DNA of 64,000 nt, taken from NCBI RefSeq assembly GCF_000512915.1, contig NZ_CP007034.1:2294001-2358000 (forward strand). Direction: 5' to 3'. The notes under the pieces are model-generated. The model made no database searches. It was not told the origin of the DNA and was given only the letters and a program-made list of their open reading frames with translations. The stretch's first letter is position 1, and each line of letters opens with the position of its first letter. Source of the DNA: Barnesiella viscericola DSM 18177 (GTDB lineage: Bacteria; Bacteroidota; Bacteroidia; Bacteroidales; Barnesiellaceae). The translations under genes were made by a program, and so were the position numbers. Of the stretch, positions 22,001 through 30,660 are shown piece after piece.

Positions 22001-23105
22001 GACCGACGAACCTACCTCGGTTCTGTTTACCTGGAACACCTCGGGCACACTCTTCGATGACTTTGAGTCGTACGACGACTTCGAGTTGGAGGCTTCGGGT
22101 GAGATAGGTTGGAGTTATTGGGACCTTGACCGGCAGGAGACCTATGGATTCCAAGGTGCCGATTTCCCGGGCATGGGCGGTGAAATGGCATTTATCGTAT
22201 TCAATCCTTCGGCTACAACGCCGTCGGTGGCCAGTCTGGAATCGCTGCAAGCACACAGCGGATCCAAATACCTGGCCAGCTTTGCCGCCGATGCGCAAAA
22301 CAACGACTGGATTTTGTCGCCCGAACTGAATTATGCACATGATTTCAGCCTGAGCTTCTTTGCTCGCTCTTACATGGCCGCAGCTAACTATCCCGACTAT
22401 TTCAGCGTAGGATATACCGAAGAGGTAGATCCCGAACCGACCGACTTTGTGTGGTTGGCCGAACAGGTAGGTCCCCCCTCGCAGTGGACCGAGTATTCCT
22501 ATACGATTCCGGCTACGGCCAAGCACATTGCCATTCGCAACGTGTCGACGTATGAGGGTTTTGTGTTGATGATCGACGATATCTATATCGGCAGTCTGCC
22601 TCGCATGAAGGCCAACACTCGGAGTGAGCGTGGTGTAGCCGCTGCTCCCGATGTCGAATATGAGGTTTATCTCGACGGAGCGAAGGTGGCTACGACCACG
22701 GCCAACAGCTATCTGTTCGAGAATCTTTCGGAAGGTGAGCACGAGGCCGGTGTCAAAGCCGTGTACAACTCGGGTGAATCGGAGATGGTAACCATCAAGT
22801 TCGGTGGTGAATCGGAAATCGAATCGGTACAGGCCGCAGGTAATCTTGCGATTTATCCCAATCCGGCTCGGACGGTTGTGCATGTAGAGGGCGATTATGC
22901 CCGTCTCGTGGTTTCGTCGATAAACGGAGTTCGCGTGTTGGAGTCGTCCTGTGAGTCGACACTCGATGTCTCGAACCTCGATGCCGGTGTATATGTGGTT
23001 ATGGCTTACGATGAGGATAACCGCCTGGTAGGTCATACCAAACTGGCGATTGTACGATGGAGAGAACCGCTACCGGGACGGTTGTCCCGGGGTGTAAAAA
23101 TATAA
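19086..23105 (+). pseudogene. decayed T9SS-type secreted protein (choice-of-anchor J, regulatory-like Ig domains, C-terminal sorting domain)
   Basis: One frame runs through the whole region but is broken by TGA at 19092, TAG at 19140 and TAA at 20604. The N terminus is missing: after ATG AAT TGA the frame enters directly at the choice-of-anchor J motif (VDADNNGRIWT, then stop, then VSGYMQYNGG), with no signal peptide. The TAG replaces what is probably a Trp, and the TAA a probable Gln (NGQAVT-stop-DVTIEEL). Downstream come two carboxypeptidase-regulatory-like domains, a second anchor region (about 22040-22600), and a T9SS type A sorting domain (AIYPNPARTVVHVEG) from about 22845. Even the stop seems lost: TGG at 23058 stands where TGA would end the domain after KLAIVR, adding 16 residues. 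The remaining pieces (19155-20606 and 20610-23105) look like separate genes but are not. Confidence 0.88.
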
Positions 23106-23134
23106 GGAGGTGTCCCCTGAATGGGGACACCTCC
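23106..23134. terminator. bidirectional terminator
   Basis: A 12-bp perfect stem (GGAGGTGTCCCC) with a 5-base loop followed by TTTCTCTTTTC. It separates the convergent pseudogene and the minus-strand SGNH esterase gene. Confidence 0.85.
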
Positions 23135-23158
23135 TTTCTCTTTTCTGGCGGGCTGTTG

Positions 23159-23954: not shown

Positions 23955-25235
23955 TTAATAGGCGAAGATGGGATAGTCCTTCATCATGCCGTTGACCTTC
24001 TCGCGCACGGCCTTGATAACCGATTCGCTTTCGGGGTTGGAGAGCACGGTGTCGATGAGTTCGACAATCTCGAGCATCATATCCTCTTTGGCGCCGCGGG
24101 TCGTGATGGCCGGTGTACCTACGCGGATACCCGAGGTCTGGAAGGGCGAACGGCTGTCGAACGGTACCATGTTTTTGTTGACCGTGATGTCGGCCTGTAC
24201 CAGAGCTTTCTCGGCCACCTTGCCGGTGAGTTCGGGGAACTTCGTGCGCAGGTCGATGAGCATGCAGTGGTTGTCGGTACCGTTGGAGATAATCTTGTAG
24301 CCTTTGTCCATGAAGGCTTGGGCCATGACGGCGGCATTCTTCTTCACCTGAGTCTGGTAGTCGATGTACTCGGGTTGCAGGGCCTCGCCGAACGATACGG
24401 CTTTGGCGGCAATCACGTGTTCGAGCGGGCCGCCTTGTACGCCGGGGAATACGGCCGAGTCGAGCAGGGCCGACATCTTCTTGATTTCGCCTTTGGGCGT
24501 CTTTTTGCCCCAGGGGTTATCAAAGTCTTTGCCCATCAAGATGATGCCGCCGCGGGGACCGCGCAGGGTTTTGTGGGTGGTCGAGGTGACGATGTGGGCA
24601 TATTTGAGCGGGTTGTCGAGCAGACCGGCGGCGATGAGGCCGGCGGGGTGGGCCATGTCGATCATCAGGAGGGCGCCGATTTCGTCGGCAATCTTACGCA
24701 TGCGGGCATAGTCCCATTCGCGGGAGTAGGCCGAGGCACCACCGATGATGAGTTTGGGGCGCTCGCGCAGAGCCACCTCTTCCATCATGTCGTAGTCGAC
24801 GTAGCCGGTATCTTCGCGCACGCTGTATTCGAGCGGGTGGAACATCAGGCCCGAGAAGTTGACGGGGCTCCCGTGCGAGAGGTGACCGCCGTGCGAGAGG
24901 TTCAGTCCCAGGAACTTGTCGCCCGGGTTGAGCACGGCCATGAATACGGCCATGTTGGCCTGGGCCCCCGAGTGCGGTTGAACGTTGGCCCACTCGGCGT
25001 TGAACAGTTTCTTGACGCGGTCGATGGCCACCTGTTCGCTCTGGTCTACCACCTCGCAACCGCCGTAGTAGCGTTTGCCGGGATAACCCTCGGCATACTT
25101 GTTGGTGAGGCAGGAGCCCATGGCTTGCATCACTTGTTCGCTGACAAAGTTTTCAGAGGCAATCAATTCGATACCCTTACGTTGTCGTTGATTCTCTTTT
25201 TCGATAATGTCGAAAATGATGTTGTCTCTTTTCAT
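23955..25235 (-). CDS. glyA: serine hydroxymethyltransferase
   Basis: A 426-residue PLP enzyme converting serine and tetrahydrofolate to glycine and 5,10-methylene-THF, the main source of one-carbon units for purines and thymidylate. Conserved blocks are [14 protein letters not shown] at the N terminus, [21 protein letters not shown], and the PLP lysine in [14 protein letters not shown]. Length is normal. It is the last gene of a tightly spaced minus-strand unit starting with pyrB (24 bases after the barrel gene), which makes nucleotide-synthesis sense, and a terminator follows. Confidence 0.96.
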
Positions 25236-25259: not shown

Positions 25260-25946
25260 TTACCATAAATATCCTATTGAGATGCTCAACTCGTTGATGG
25301 CTCGGGAGAGTTTTACCTGTCCCGTGGTGTTGTCGAGCCCGATGTTGAACGACTGGTCTTTCGAGTTGCGTATGCAGTAGGCATACCGGAAGTCGATGTA
25401 GAGGTGTCCGATGGTGGTGCTCAATCCGCCCACGGCATAGAACGAGAAGCTGTTGGGCTTGTCGTTGTAGACCAGGTTGCGCGACACGTTGCCCGAGGTG
25501 TTGATGCGGCTGGTCTCGTTGCAGATGTAGGAGACGCGGGGCCCGGCAAAGAGGTTCATCAGGAAAGGCCCGTGCTTGGTGATGTTGTAGCCGTAGAGCA
25601 CGGGAACATCGACGGCGTAGGCCGAGGTGTTGATCTTGTCCAGCCCGTGGTCGGGGTTGTAGAGCCGCGTGTGCGACTGGTGCATGCCTACCTCCAACTG
25701 TATGTAGTGGCGCTTGATGTTGTACCGGCCAATGAAGGAACCTGTGAGTCCCAAACTTGACTCTGAGTCGGACTCGTCGACAGGGGTGCCGTCGAGCGAC
25801 ATGTGACGTATGTCGACCAGCGGAGCATTCACGCCGAGTCTGATACCCCAGTTGAACCGCTTGCTCACGTTCAGTTCCTTGACTTGGGCTTGCGTGGCGA
25901 GGGCAAACGACAGGGCGATGCAGATAGCCGGGACCAGTCTCTTCAT
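25260..25946 (-). CDS. outer-membrane beta-barrel protein
   Basis: A 228-residue protein starting at ATG 25946 with a signal peptide (KRLVPAICIALSFALATQAQ) and repeated amphipathic strands (FNWGIRLGVNAPLVDIRHMS, YIQLEVGMHQSH, FSFYAVGGLSTTIGHLYIDF), ending in an aromatic residue (ISIGYLW). It fits the PorT-like outer membrane barrels. The frame extends upstream to 26405 through the flavin reductase gene; that extension is a shadow. It begins 5 bases after the flavin reductase stop, so it is translated from the pyr-glyA operon, an unexpected place for an envelope protein. Function unknown. Confidence 0.8.
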   Translation of the reverse strand: MKRLVPAICIALSFALATQAQVKELNVSKRFNWGIRLGVNAPLVDIRHMSLDGTPVDESDSESSLGLTGSFIGRYNIKRHYIQLEVGMHQSHTRLYNPDHGLDKINTSAYAVDVPVLYGYNITKHGPFLMNLFAGPRVSYICNETSRINTSGNVSRNLVYNDKPNSFSFYAVGGLSTTIGHLYIDFRYAYCIRNSKDQSFNIGLDNTTGQVKLSRAINELSISIGYLW

Positions 25947-25951
25947 GCGCG

Positions 25952-26521
25952 TTACTTGTTTTTCTTTTGAACCGACCAGCCGAATTTCCCTATCTCGCGC
26001 CCCATTTCGTAGTAGTGTCCGTGCGAGTAGACCAGTAGGTTGGCCTTCTGCATGTCGAAGGCACCGGTGGCGGGGTCGATGTACTTGTCGTCGGCCAGCA
26101 GGTTGACCACGTCGGCGATAAACATGTCGTGCGACCCCAGGCGGACAATCTCGCGGGCCTTGCACTCGATGCAGAGGGGCGACTCTTCGACGTAGGGTGC
26201 CTGTACGATTTGGGCTTTGCGGGGGGTGAGCCCCGTCTGCTCGAACTTGTTGTAGTTCTTTCCCGAGTTGACGCCGCACCAGTCGGTGGCACGAGCCATG
26301 CCGACCGTAGTGAGGTTGATGACAAACTCCATGTTCTTGCGCAGAATCTCGTAGGAGTATCGCTCGGGACGTATCGAGACGTAGCACATGGGCGGATTGG
26401 TGCATATCGTTCCCACCCAGCTGACGGTGAGCAGGTTGTACTCATCGGGGGTGCTGCCGCAACTCACCAGTACGGCGGGCAGCGGGTAGATGGTGGTCCC
26501 GGGTTTCCAGTTCTGTTTCAT
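25952..26521 (-). CDS. flavin reductase family protein (FMN-binding split barrel)
   Basis: A 189-residue protein of the DIM6/NTAB flavin reductase family, which binds FMN and usually passes electrons from NAD(P)H. Typical features are PLPAVLVSCG at the start, LTVSWVGTICTNPPMCYVSI (FMN-contacting region) and FVINLTTVG. It starts 13 bases after the pyrI stop. Its physiological substrate is unknown. Confidence 0.85.
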   Translation of the reverse strand: MKQNWKPGTTIYPLPAVLVSCGSTPDEYNLLTVSWVGTICTNPPMCYVSIRPERYSYEILRKNMEFVINLTTVGMARATDWCGVNSGKNYNKFEQTGLTPRKAQIVQAPYVEESPLCIECKAREIVRLGSHDMFIADVVNLLADDKYIDPATGAFDMQKANLLVYSHGHYYEMGREIGKFGWSVQKKNK

Positions 26522-26534
26522 ATCGGGGCTGGGG

Positions 26535-26996
26535 TTAGCAGATTTCTATTTCGTCTTTCGATACCGAGCGCTCGCAGTAGTGGCACTTGACCTGAATGTT
26601 CACCTTGTCGGTCACGTGGAAGATGGTCTCCATCGGCTCGTTGTTGGTGATGCACTTGGGGTTGTTGCAGCGAATGATACCATGCACTACGTCGGGGAGC
26701 GATACCTTGTATTTCTCGGTCACCTGGTAGTCGTGAATAATATTGATCTGGGCTTCGGGAGCCACCAGGGCAATCTTGTTCAGTTCCTCTTCCTTGAAGA
26801 AGCAGTCGGCCACCTTGATGATACCCTTCCGGCCTATTTTCTTGCTGACCAGATTGTTGCCGATGGTTATGCTGTTGGGACAGTTTTCGAGACCCAGGAT
26901 AGAGACCACCTTGAAAAGCTGGTTCGAGGGAATGTGGTCGATCACCGTTCCGTTTTCGAGGGCTGCTACTTTTAATTCTTTCTTTTCGACGTTCAT
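26535..26996 (-). CDS. pyrI: aspartate carbamoyltransferase regulatory subunit
   Basis: A 153-residue regulatory chain that binds CTP/ATP and assembles with PyrB into the allosteric holoenzyme. The N-terminal NGTVIDHIPSNQLFKVV motif is the nucleotide-binding start of PyrI, and the C-terminal zinc domain has four cysteines (IRCNNPKC and KCHYC). ATG at 26996 is preferred to the TTG at 27005. It follows pyrB by 22 bases. Its presence means feedback control at the enzyme level is available besides any transcriptional control in the leader. Confidence 0.95.
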   Translation of the reverse strand: MNVEKKELKVAALENGTVIDHIPSNQLFKVVSILGLENCPNSITIGNNLVSKKIGRKGIIKVADCFFKEEELNKIALVAPEAQINIIHDYQVTEKYKVSLPDVVHGIIRCNNPKCITNNEPMETIFHVTDKVNIQVKCHYCERSVSKDEIEIC

Positions 26997-27018
26997 GATT
27001 TTCAAAATGGTGAGGGGG

Positions 27019-27933
27019 TTAAACTTCGATTCCTAATACTTTGCAGATGATGGCCTGCCGGGCATACAGTCCGTTTTTGGCCTGTTGGAAATAGTAGGCC
27101 TTGGGGTTGCTGTCGACGTCGTAGGAAATTTCGTTGACACGGGGCAGGGGGTGCAGCACCCGCAGGTTCTCCTTGCTGTGTTCGAGCATGCTGTTGCGCA
27201 AGGTGTAGACGTTCTTTACCTTTTCATACTCCATGAGGTCGGTGAACCGCTCGCGTTGCACGCGGGTCATGTACAGAATATCGGCCTGGTTGATGACCTC
27301 CTCGGAAAACTCGGTGTGCTCGTAGTAGGGTATGTGGTGTTGCTCGCAGAAGATTTTGTATTCGATGGGCATCTTCAACTCGTCGGGGGCGACGAAGTGG
27401 AAGGTGGGGTTGAAATGCGACATGGCCATGAGCAGCGAGTGGACCGTGCGGCCATATTTCAGGTCGCCCACCATCGTGATGTTCAGGTTCGAGAGCGTGC
27501 CTTGTGTCTTGTAGATCGAGTAGAGGTCGAGCATCGTCTGCGACGGGTGCTGGTTGGCACCGTCGCCGGCGTTGATGACGGGTACCGACGAGATTTCGGA
27601 GGCGTAGCGGGCCGCCCCTTCGAGGTGGTGGCGCATGATAATCAGGTCGACATAGTTGCTCACCATCATGATGGTGTCTTTCAAGGTCTCGCCCTTCGAC
27701 GAGCTGGTAGTGCTGGCGTCGGAAAATCCGATTACTCTCCCTCCCAGCCGGTTGACAGCCGTCTCAAAACTGAGCCGCGTGCGGGTGGAGGGCTCGAAAA
27801 AGAGCGTGGCCACCACTTTGCCTTCCAGTAGTCTCTGATTGGGGTTGGCCTCGAATCGGCTTGCTTTTTGGAGCAGGTCCAGAATTTCTTCTTTTGAAAA
27901 ATCGGTAATAGATACTAAACTCTCACGTTTCAT
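27019..27933 (-). CDS. pyrB: aspartate carbamoyltransferase catalytic subunit
   Basis: A 304-residue enzyme joining carbamoyl phosphate and aspartate, the first committed step of pyrimidine synthesis. The carbamoyl-phosphate site [13 protein letters not shown] has STRTR at residues 49-53, and [16 protein letters not shown] and HPLPRVNEI complete the family pattern. ATG at 27933 is chosen because the protein then starts [12 protein letters not shown] as in relatives. The frame is open upstream to 28005, but that part overlaps a terminator-like hairpin in the leader. It is the first gene of pyrB-pyrI-flavin reductase-barrel-glyA. Confidence 0.96.
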
Positions 27934-27977: not shown

Positions 27978-28013
27978 AAAAAGCCAACACGACAATGACT
28001 GTCACGCTGGCTT
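27978..28013 (-). promoter_or_regulatory. candidate transcription attenuator in the pyrB leader
   Basis: On the minus strand a 14-bp stem with three G-U pairs (arm AAGCCAGCGTGACA at 28013-28000, loop GTCAT, arm TGTCGTGTTGGCTT at 27994-27981) runs directly into TTTTT (27982-27978). No gene ends upstream on this strand, so the hairpin is not a normal gene terminator; it lies between the pyrB promoter and the pyrB ATG. A 30-codon frame ends one base before it. This layout resembles the pyrBI attenuator of enteric bacteria. Confidence 0.6.
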
Positions 28014-28014
28014 G

Positions 28015-28107
28015 CTATTCGGTTGGTGTGGACGGGAACATGCGCTCGGGCATCTCGTGGAAATGCCTTTGCAATAATGGATTATATGTATCTTCCCGCC
28101 ACTTCAT
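28015..28107 (-). CDS. possible pyrBI leader peptide (30 residues)
   Basis: ATG at 28107 lies about 10 bases after the -7 box of the pyrB promoter, so the mRNA would be nearly leaderless. The frame begins MKWREDTYNPLLQRHF, has 30 codons and stops with TAG at 28017-28015, one base before the attenuator stem. A ribosome reaching this stop would cover the 5' arm of the hairpin and favour read-through into pyrB. Known precedent: the E. coli pyrL leader, of different sequence and 44 residues. Chance cannot be excluded without comparison to relatives. Confidence 0.35.
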   Translation of the reverse strand: MKWREDTYNPLLQRHFHEMPERMFPSTPTE

Positions 28108-28116
28108 TTGGTTAAG

Positions 28117-28147
28117 CAAAGATAGTAAAAAAAGGGCGAAAGCCAAA
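28117..28147 (-). promoter_or_regulatory. promoter of the pyrBI-glyA operon
   Basis: On the minus strand TTTG at 28147-28144 and TATCTTTG at 28124-28117, spaced 19 bases: a near-ideal match. The predicted transcript start near 28110 leaves a leader of about 175 bases before pyrB. Confidence 0.75.
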
Positions 28148-28293: not shown

Positions 28294-30660
28294 ATGAAAG
28301 TGGATAGGATTAAAAAAGCGTTCGGAGATACCTCTCGCGTGATTAAATATATGTGGATTGCCTTCGGTGCCCTGGTGGTATTGGCGGTGATTGCCTTTGC
28401 CATGATTGCCTGGGGGTGGATTGGCTATATGCCGCCCATCGAGGATATGGAGAATCCCAAGGACAAGTTTGCCTCGGAAATCTATTCGTCCGACATGGAG
28501 GTATTGGGCCGTTTCTACCAGAGCAAGAGCAATCGGGTGTATGTGCACTACGACGAAATATCGCCCTACCTGGTCAATGCCCTTATCGCCACCGAGGATA
28601 TTCGTTTCAAGGATCACTCGGGTATCGATGTAAAGGCGCTGTTCAGGGCCTTCATCAAGCGGGGCCTTCTCTTCCAGAAGAGTGCCGGCGGCGGCAGTAC
28701 CATCACCCAGCAGCTGGCCAAGTTGCTCTATTCGCCCAGTGCCGACAATATCGTGGAGCGTCTTTTCCAGAAGCCGCAGGAGTGGGTCATTGCCGTGCAG
28801 CTCGAACGGTTCTACACCAAGGAAGAGATTGTGAACATGTATCTCAACCATTTCGATTTCCTCAACAATGCGGTGGGTATCCAGTCGGCCGCCTACATCT
28901 ATTTTCACACCACCCCCGACAAATTGAAAATCGAGGAGGCCGCCACGCTGGTGGGCATGTGCAAGAACCCCTCGTATTACAATCCGCGCCGTTTCAACGA
29001 GCGTACCCGCGGCCGTCGCAACACGGTGCTGGACCAGATGTATAAGGCTAAATACATTACCAAGGCCGAACGCGACTCGTTGCAGGCTCTGCCGCTGGAA
29101 CTGCACTACACGCGAGTTGACCACAAGGAGGGGTTGGCTCCCTATTTCAGAGAGCAGCTGCGGTTGATGATGACCGCCAAGAAACCCGTGCGGTCGGACT
29201 ATCGCGGCTGGGAAGCGCAACAGTTTGTCGACGACTCCATCGCCTGGGCCACCAATCCGCTGTATGGCTGGTGCGAGAAGAATCGCAAGGCCGACGGCTC
29301 GAAATACAACATCTATACCGACGGACTCAAAATCTATACCACCATCGACTCGCGCATGCAGCGCTATGCCGAGGAGGCTGTCGAGGAGCACTTGGGTCAC
29401 TACCTGCAACCCCGCTTCTTTGCCGAGAAGAAGGGTCGCAGCTACGCTCCCTTCTCCCGCAGCATTACCAAGGAGGAGCGGGAGGCCATTCTCGACCGGG
29501 CCATGAAACAGTCCGACCGCTATCGCTCGATGAAACAGTCGGGCGTGAGCGAGGAGAAAATCAAGCAGGCCTTCCAGACTCCGGTCGAGATGCAGGTATT
29601 CTCCTACGACGGCATGATCGACACGATTATGTCGCCCATGGATTCGATTCGCTATCAGAAGTCGTTCCTGCGCACGGGCTTCATGTCGATGGACCCCCAT
29701 ACCGGGCATGTAAAGGCCTATGTGGGCGGCCCCGATTTTGAACATTTCCAATACAACATGGTGTCGGTGGGACGTCGGCAAATCGGGTCGACCGTGAAGC
29801 CCTTCCTCTACACCCTGGCCATGGAAGAGGGTTTCACCCCCTGCGATATGTTCCTGAACGAGCAGCCCACGCTCATCACCGAGACCGGGCAGGCCTGGTC
29901 GCCCCGCAACTCGTCAAAGGCGAGGGTAGGCGAGATGGTGACGTTGCGCTGGGGGTTGGCCAACTCGAACAACTGGATTTCGGCCCGGTTGATGGATAAA
30001 CTCTCGCCCTCGTCGCTGGCCCGGCTCATGCACTCGTTTGGAATCAAGAATAAAATCGACGAGGTGGTCTCGCTCTGTCTGGGACCGGTCGATGTATCGG
30101 TCGAGGAGATGGTGACGGCCTACACGGCATTCTCGAACAAAGGGGTGCGGGTCGACCCCCTCTATGTCACACGCATAGAAGACAACTTGGGCAATGTCAT
30201 CTCTGAGTTCTCCCCTTCGATGACCGAGGTGTTCAGCGAGCAGGCCTACTACCGCATCTTACCCATGTTGCGTGACGTAATCGACCACGGAACCGGCGGC
30301 CGTGTGCGCTATCGCTACGGTATCACGGCTCCCATGGGAGGCAAGACGGGTACGACCAACAACAACTCCGACGGTTGGTTCATGGGCTTTACCCCCGACT
30401 TGGTTTCGGGCGTGTGGGTAGGCGGCGAGGATCGGTCGATACACTTCGACGGCATGGCCGACGGACAGGGTGCCAGCATGGCCCTGCCCATCTACGGACT
30501 CTATATGCAGAAGGTCTATGCCGATCCCGAGTTGGGCTATTCGCAGACGAGCGATTTTGAAATACCGGCCGAATATGCCGATCCGTGCAGCGGTGGTTCG
30601 TATGTGGAAGAGCCGGTGCAAGCGCCTCCGATGGAGAGCATCGAGGGTATATTCGATTGA
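28294..30660 (+). CDS. class A penicillin-binding protein (PBP1A-like, bifunctional)
   Basis: A 788-residue bifunctional peptidoglycan synthase. One N-terminal membrane helix (residues about 20-45) anchors it in the inner membrane. The GT51 glycosyltransferase domain shows ATEDIRFKDHSGID and GGGSTITQQLAKLLYS. The transpeptidase domain shows S-T-V-K near residue 499 (the acylated Ser), SNN in GLANSNNWIS, and KTGTT near 683. All catalytic motifs are intact. It is transcribed divergently from the pyrBI operon and ends at a strong terminator (30683-30710). Multiple PBP1 paralogues are common in this group, so the exact name is left open. Confidence 0.93.
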   Translation: MKVDRIKKAFGDTSRVIKYMWIAFGALVVLAVIAFAMIAWGWIGYMPPIEDMENPKDKFASEIYSSDMEVLGRFYQSKSNRVYVHYDEISPYLVNALIATEDIRFKDHSGIDVKALFRAFIKRGLLFQKSAGGGSTITQQLAKLLYSPSADNIVERLFQKPQEWVIAVQLERFYTKEEIVNMYLNHFDFLNNAVGIQSAAYIYFHTTPDKLKIEEAATLVGMCKNPSYYNPRRFNERTRGRRNTVLDQMYKAKYITKAERDSLQALPLELHYTRVDHKEGLAPYFREQLRLMMTAKKPVRSDYRGWEAQQFVDDSIAWATNPLYGWCEKNRKADGSKYNIYTDGLKIYTTIDSRMQRYAEEAVEEHLGHYLQPRFFAEKKGRSYAPFSRSITKEEREAILDRAMKQSDRYRSMKQSGVSEEKIKQAFQTPVEMQVFSYDGMIDTIMSPMDSIRYQKSFLRTGFMSMDPHTGHVKAYVGGPDFEHFQYNMVSVGRRQIGSTVKPFLYTLAMEEGFTPCDMFLNEQPTLITETGQAWSPRNSSKARVGEMVTLRWGLANSNNWISARLMDKLSPSSLARLMHSFGIKNKIDEVVSLCLGPVDVSVEEMVTAYTAFSNKGVRVDPLYVTRIEDNLGNVISEFSPSMTEVFSEQAYYRILPMLRDVIDHGTGGRVRYRYGITAPMGGKTGTTNNNSDGWFMGFTPDLVSGVWVGGEDRSIHFDGMADGQGASMALPIYGLYMQKVYADPELGYSQTSDFEIPAEYADPCSGGSYVEEPVQAPPMESIEGIFD

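Follow-up and report, generated by a model that had tools for sequence, protein, structure and literature searches.

In silico analysis of the 64,000-nt window from Barnesiella viscericola DSM 18177 (the window being the whole stretch of DNA that was analysed) revealed a promoter, a short open reading frame (ORF) and a terminator-like hairpin directly ahead of pyrB. Together they probably form a ribosome-coupled transcription attenuator which, judged from its sequence, would work like the enteric pyrBI attenuator, with near-leaderless initiation of translation and no detectable homology to PyrL. The first-pass annotation had proposed this succession of promoter, short frame and hairpin before pyrB, and reading the letters confirmed it, with a -33/-7 promoter and 30 codons. 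The elements of the leader and its upstream neighbour are:

28144..28147, minus strand: -33 element TTTG, read directly from the letters, with a 19-nt spacer to the -7 box
28117..28124, minus strand: -7 box TATCTTTG, read directly from the letters, fitting the Bacteroidota consensus TAnnTTTG
28015..28107, minus strand: leader ORF, 30 codons plus TAG, ATG at 28107-28105, with frame and N-terminal sequence conserved in the genus
28084..28089, minus strand: ACATAT in codons 7-8, the window's form (the +21 form) of an in-phase CAT/TAT-A element
28049..28067, minus strand: central hairpin within the leader ORF, 8 bp with a loop of 3, a candidate pause hairpin at a position common to many leaders
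27981..28013, minus strand: terminator-like hairpin (putative attenuator), 15 pairs with a loop of 3 by folding
27978..27982, minus strand: run of five Ts that includes the two closing the stem, read directly from the letters
28294-30660, plus strand: class A penicillin-binding protein gene, the divergent upstream neighbour

The box matches TAnnTTTG, the -7 consensus of Bacteroidota (PMC9723704). The leader ATG lies 9 nt downstream of TATCTTTG, close to the distance of about 10 bases given at first, and the 30-codon peptide reads MKWREDTYNPLLQRHFHEMPERMFPSTPTE. Its TAG occupies 28017-28015, and a single base separates it from the stem-loop. The hairpin had been described as 14 bp running into five Ts; the hairpin itself held, folding gave 15 pairs, and the run amounts to five Ts when the two that close the terminator stem are counted. 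Folding of the leader was better than that of its own shuffles (z -2.75). As the upstream neighbour is divergent, the hairpin terminates no upstream gene, in agreement with the original reading.

The layout was cast into a fixed rule demanding a TAnnTTTG box, an ATG 3-22 nt further on, an ORF of 15-75 codons ending at most 10 nt short of a hairpin with a T tail and an energy of -10 kcal/mol or better, and a gene start 10-170 nt beyond this hairpin. It was applied to 175 distinct pyrB upstream regions of Bacteroidales pooled from three sources: relatives chosen by PyrB similarity (the best 80 of 574 confirmed candidates) and further relatives, 60 of them picked from 387 genomes with a match and 50 from 115 with a match. 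The layout was present in 53 of the 175 regions, a proportion that does not equal the frequency across the order, because relatives were chosen by PyrB similarity. As an own-genome control we used 20 stretches of 20 kb plus the window (464 kb, 928,000 strand-bases), in which 344 TAnnTTTG boxes yielded one match, pyrB itself. It is hardly credible that a chance hairpin and a chance ORF simply met in a long 5' region: single features are common, as the number of boxes in the sample illustrates, but recurrence at this level, against one place for all the control boxes, already disfavours chance. The survey also bears on the idea of a separate short transcript, a small RNA or small protein message ending at the hairpin, with pyrB expressed by constitutive read-through. 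Promoter, about 130 nt and terminator would indeed make a complete short transcript, but the layout stands before pyrB and nowhere else in the sampled 464 kb, and peptide and RNA sequence diverge widely among families while the layout is retained; we therefore regard this explanation as improbable.

Conservation in relatives, which the first-pass annotation had suggested examining, was evident: the leader was present, with frame and hairpin, in all nine genomes of the genus examined, and the layout was found in other families as well. It occurred in five of five members of the family with Coprobacter secundus, in both members of another family that had upstream sequence (the third was cut by a contig end), and in 19 of the 50 loci examined from a large family whose named members include Muribaculaceae. 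Under the fixed rule no leader was found at 20 loci titled Bacteroides and 12 titled Parabacteroides. The rule demands TAnnTTTG, and many Bacteroides loci show a TAnnTTTA box by eye; at loci with this box, no leader ORF and hairpin were seen by eye. At these 20 Bacteroides and 12 Parabacteroides loci, pyrB therefore manages without the leader. By eye, several Parabacteroides-titled loci (e.g. L019, L027, L041, and L043) carry a strong hairpin plus T run that apparently ends the upstream gene; the T tract of this hairpin overlaps the pyrB promoter region.

A weaker rule ignoring the ORF (box and hairpin only) returned 63 leaders from the 175 regions. Nine were taken out by hand: L013 and L092, which by eye are true leaders with a degenerate box; L209, which has a later ATG; and L107, L108, L110, L113, L117, and L127, which were unlike the layout. 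The 54 curated leaders left by this removal, which came after inspection of the data and flatters the results, were reduced to 35 representatives by collapsing near relatives; these are not independent of each other phylogenetically, and two of them belong to the genus of the window.

With none removed, 47 of the 63 leaders had their first ATG 5-10 nt past the box, compared to 27 of the 344 own-genome boxes; among the 54 curated leaders the start codon stood at this distance in 47. In 68 relatives the box directly before pyrB was followed by the pyrB ATG at a median of 28 nt, and at 12 nt or less in only one of them. The short distance is therefore a property of the leader, not of the pyrB promoters of the order. 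Between hairpin and pyrB a second TAnnTTTG box was found in none of the 35 representatives. From the box-to-ATG distance we infer that the leader is near-leaderless. The first-pass annotation had singled out the missing ribosome-binding site. A Shine-Dalgarno leader is indeed lacking, but this is ordinary in Bacteroidota, where such leaders are not the rule; the unusual part is the short distance from promoter to start codon. For comparison, 5' UTRs below 10 nt account for about 3.7% in B. thetaiotaomicron (PMC7366714), and leaderless mRNAs for 5.5% in Flavobacterium (PMC9723704).

The reading frame was assessed in the 57 of 63 leaders that were eligible, with the ATG at 4-22 nt and 60 nt or more left before the hairpin. 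Of these, 51 kept the ATG frame open to a point 6 nt or less from the hairpin, compared to 25 and 8 for the other frames and 9.9 for shuffles; counted by cluster, it was open in 31 of 37 (other frames 11 and 5, shuffles 6.3). Over codons 2-20, pN/pS in the genus was 0.35 in frame vs 1.29 and 0.72 in the shifted frames. The corresponding values were 0.53 vs 0.67 and 0.85 in the seven sequences of a Coprobacter-like group, and 0.55 vs 2.43 and 1.00 for L121 and L195. A three-sequence comparison of L010, L104, and L105 gave 16 nonsynonymous and no synonymous changes in frame, and coding constraint is therefore disfavoured in this group. The first 15 residues showed above-shuffle similarity to other representatives in 20 of 35 cases (p below 0.05). 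Frame openness and pN/pS favour translation of the leader, while the L010 group speaks against it.

Histidine made up 6.8% of residues 2-26 in the 35 representatives, vs 3.5% and 2.5% in the shifted frames, and stood at codon 7 in 15 of them, encoded by CAT rather than CAC in 14 of the 15. Such enrichment would suit classical amino-acid attenuation of the trp/his type, in which the peptide serves as sensor of a charged tRNA and ribosome stalling favours an antiterminator, and for Flavobacterium a leader-peptide attenuation of amino-acid operons has been suggested (PMC9723704). These attenuators share with the pyrB leader an intrinsic terminator and a short ORF, which in the pyrB leader is putatively translated, but in the pyrB leader neither antiterminator nor codon run was found, and its ORF overlaps the terminator. 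Duplex energies computed for the 35 representatives placed antiterminator pairing with the terminator's first arm no further than shuffles (mean z +0.23, none of 35 below -2), single-codon runs were absent from the peptides by eye, and the target is a pyrimidine gene. Moreover, 30 of the 35 representatives have their stop within the terminator or past it, whereas terminators of known amino-acid attenuators are placed more than 20 bp past the leader gene (PMC4824070). Having revealed no antiterminator and no run of a regulating codon, the analysis rejected amino-acid attenuation, to which we assign little probability.

In the genus, the 13 outer pairs of the terminator-like hairpin are unbroken across the nine sequences; the stem varies without breaking, which passes the check on stem changes suggested in the first-pass annotation. 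The same annotation had also suggested looking for a conserved spacing between stop and hairpin, and this spacing proved not to be fixed. Of the 35 hand-curated representatives, 14 have the stop within the hairpin's 5' half and 8 within its 3' half; in another 8 it follows the hairpin, and in the remaining 5 it precedes the hairpin by no more than 10 nt. A stop exactly one base before the hairpin, as originally described, is confined to two genus members, the window and L082, its nearest relative; in the remaining seven it is found within the hairpin or past it. Although not fixed, the stop never lay more than 10 nt ahead of the hairpin (35 of 35). In E. coli, ribosomes at stop codons a few bases ahead of a terminator repress it, no such repression is seen at stop-to-terminator distances above 27 nt, and the pyrBI terminator itself sits inside the 135-bp leader gene (PMC4824070). 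Since stops close to terminators repress them in E. coli, the stop positions of the Bacteroidales leaders fit the need of an attenuator working by ribosome occlusion.

Many leaders contain a second hairpin upstream of the terminator. When the most stable hairpin between ATG and terminator was taken from each of the 35 representatives, its centre fell at ATG+44 to +56 in 20, vs 17% in dinucleotide shuffles (p 1e-7), limits that were picked after the data had been seen and are flattering; with +40 to +60 the count is 27 of 35 vs 29% shuffled. The mean z of this central hairpin was -1.21 over the 35 representatives; of the nine genus sequences, L001 and L082 had a strong one, and in seven it did not exceed shuffles. 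In one sister family, a stem at the same place was paired in all eight leaders, with one pair occurring as G-C, A-T, and G-T, the stem pattern having been written from those same sequences, which flatters the result. A conserved hairpin need not be a pause hairpin, because the E. coli pyrL pause was reported to be NusA-independent in vitro and not to be rescued by compensatory stem mutants (PMC9291695).

The common position of the central hairpin, and the G-C to A-T exchange with a G-T form in the sister-family stem, would also be compatible with an attenuator controlled by a protein or ligand, of the PyrR type or an undescribed riboswitch, in which the ORF is incidental. PyrR-dependent pyr attenuation in Bacillus likewise places a premature terminator ahead of the pyr operon. 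The own genome differs in having no PyrR above cut-off (best score 22.4 bits vs a cut-off of 138) and no match to the PyrR RNA motif RF00515, and PyrR attenuation was rejected; in the window, no Rfam match was obtained at gathering score. Control by a protein or ligand would in addition leave the open frame and the ATG position unexplained, and we consider it unlikely.

Early in the ORF, 15 of the 35 representatives have a [CT]ATA beginning at ATG+18 and 7 have one at ATG+21, any other offset occurring in 4 or fewer; the motif was found by inspection after the data had been seen, which flatters the result. In the reading frame it appears as a His or Tyr codon at codon 7 or 8 followed by A. T content was higher after the hairpin region (0.325) than before it (0.224), and a run of at least four Ts within 22 nt after the best hairpin occurred in 6 of 35 representatives, vs 2.1 in shuffles. 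Between central hairpin and terminator the leader of the window has no U-rich tract. With such runs in 6 of 35 representatives and none in the window, UTP sensing is not generally written in the sequence. By eye, seven of the eight sister-family leaders (L006, L007, L013, L091, L092, L094, and L160) have a run of at least four Ts shortly after the central hairpin, and L006 and L013 consequently also score a terminator-like hairpin there; these runs may point to attenuators in tandem or to a U-rich pause like that of E. coli.

The genes that follow the leader run in the same direction:

27019..27933, minus strand: pyrB, aspartate carbamoyltransferase catalytic chain (Pfam OTCace_N and OTCace)
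26535..27005, minus strand: pyrI, regulatory chain (Pfam PyrI and PyrI_C)
25952..26521, minus strand: flavin reductase-like protein (Pfam Flavin_Reduct)
25260..25886, minus strand: outer membrane beta-barrel protein (Pfam OMP_b-brl_2)
23955..25235, minus strand: glyA, serine hydroxymethyltransferase, possible end of the operon (Pfam SHMT)

Between 27019 and 23955, from pyrB to the end of glyA, no terminator-like site was found on the minus strand, and one lies past glyA at 23922-23893. Co-transcription of pyrB through glyA is plausible, and so is the earlier suggestion that the element also controls glyA, which would rest on this gap between terminator-like sites. The genome is complete (3.08 Mb). 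Judged by PyrB, Candidatus Barnesiella excrementigallinarum (97%) is the closest relative with a name, and an alignment of 301 columns gives PyrB 54% identity to the E. coli protein. Upstream, the pyrB frame stays open as far as a GTG at 28005, inside the attenuator hairpin, so that automatic start calling could lengthen PyrB by 24 codons. Elsewhere in the window, a perfect 14-bp stem at 23104-23136 has a terminator-like score on both strands.

To compare the leader with the enteric system we used one E. coli sequence, that of K-12 (NC_000913). Its pyrL has 44 codons, with CAT at codon 7, a folded hairpin from ATG+30 to +53 and the terminator from ATG+88 to +108. Both leaders precede pyrB-pyrI, as judged for the window from the Pfam labels of its genes, and in both the ORF reaches or crosses an intrinsic terminator, the curated Bacteroidales representatives being at most 10 nt short of it in 35 of 35 cases. 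Each has a hairpin within the ORF, that of the Bacteroidales leaders with a median centre of 49.5, and the distance from ATG to terminator is nearly the same, 88 in E. coli and a median of 91 (interquartile 86-97) in Bacteroidales. Histidine at codon 7 in E. coli is matched in the 15 representatives mentioned above; this is weak evidence of homology, because a single E. coli sequence was compared. The leaders differ in initiation and in the pause region: E. coli has about 25 nt from TATAAT to ATG with GGAGG ahead of the start codon, vs 5-10 nt in Bacteroidales, and a U-rich tract that the window's leader lacks. In an anchored comparison at three lengths, overall similarity of the leader peptides to E. 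coli K-12 PyrL was not significant (p 0.29, 0.19, and 0.13), and common descent with pyrL, as judged from this one sequence, was not supported. The first-pass claim that the logic matches enteric pyrBI attenuation is thus borne out by layout and ATG-to-terminator spacing. The claim of an independent design is in line with the lack of significant PyrL similarity but has to be set against the shared spacing and codon 7. Since layout and spacing are alike and initiation differs, the leader is better said to work like the enteric attenuator than to be one.

In the main texts of the papers searched on pyrB attenuation and leader peptides in Bacteroidota and Bacteroidales, no description of the element was found. 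The main text of a study on premature terminators mentions neither Bacteroid- nor pyrB (PMC2965389). In B. thetaiotaomicron, short ORFs were reported in long 5' UTRs, some of which the authors find reminiscent of attenuation leader peptides (PMC7366714). These ORFs resemble the element in this respect, but the main text does not include pyrB, and the Bacteroides loci examined here are without the leader.

The reading of the hairpin as an attenuator, made originally on the window alone, is supported by the conserved frame and hairpin, the recurrent layout and the unbroken stem. Promoter, ORF and hairpin can be read from the letters, as can their conservation and geometry; from these we infer start site, translation, pausing, termination and signal as follows. 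RNA polymerase would start a few bases upstream of the leader ATG, as the promoter box indicates, and a ribosome, needing no Shine-Dalgarno leader, would load at the 5' end or close to it and translate the ORF. The ORF abuts or overlaps the terminator's first arm; a ribosome following close behind the polymerase would cover this arm, and pyrB-pyrI would be transcribed, with read-through perhaps reaching the genes down to glyA. If the polymerase ran ahead of the ribosome, the terminator would fold and transcription would stop before pyrB. The central hairpin is a candidate pause site that would give the first ribosome time to close up. As in enteric pyrBI, the signal would likely be a shortage of UTP that slows the polymerase; what makes UTP the natural candidate is that the E. 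coli pyrBI leader is controlled by UTP-specific pausing (PMC5234074).

A wider interpretation of the ribosome-coupled attenuator can be offered tentatively, and we hold it with some doubt. Bacteroidales may have evolved a nucleotide-sensing attenuator of the pyrBI type of their own, whose ORF begins within a few bases of the RNA's 5' end, if not at the end itself. The first ribosome would then load on the emerging RNA, and its timing relative to the polymerase would be governed by the CAT/TAT-A element at codon 7-8 together with the hairpin about 50 nt into the leader. Leaderless initiation would in this case act as a synchroniser replacing the enteric Shine-Dalgarno leader and U-rich pause, and the near-equal distance from ATG to terminator would be convergent.

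Ribosome-coupled attenuation can work only if, within the first hundred bases, a ribosome is trailing the polymerase closely. The pyrB leader suggests that a translation start near the 5' end can supply this coupling in Bacteroidota, even though short 5' UTRs are rare in B. thetaiotaomicron. New features seen in this analysis are the second hairpin about 50 nt past the ATG in many leaders, the in-phase CAT/TAT-A at codon 7 or 8, and the pyrL-like distance from ATG to terminator. To our knowledge, transcription-translation coupling has been little studied in Bacteroidota; if our reading is true, the leader would offer a natural system, sampled many times over, for tests of coupling, and its conserved geometry (median 91 nt, 88 in E. 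coli) makes the physical limits of coupling directly testable. It would also be a regulator of pyrimidine synthesis in gut commensals.
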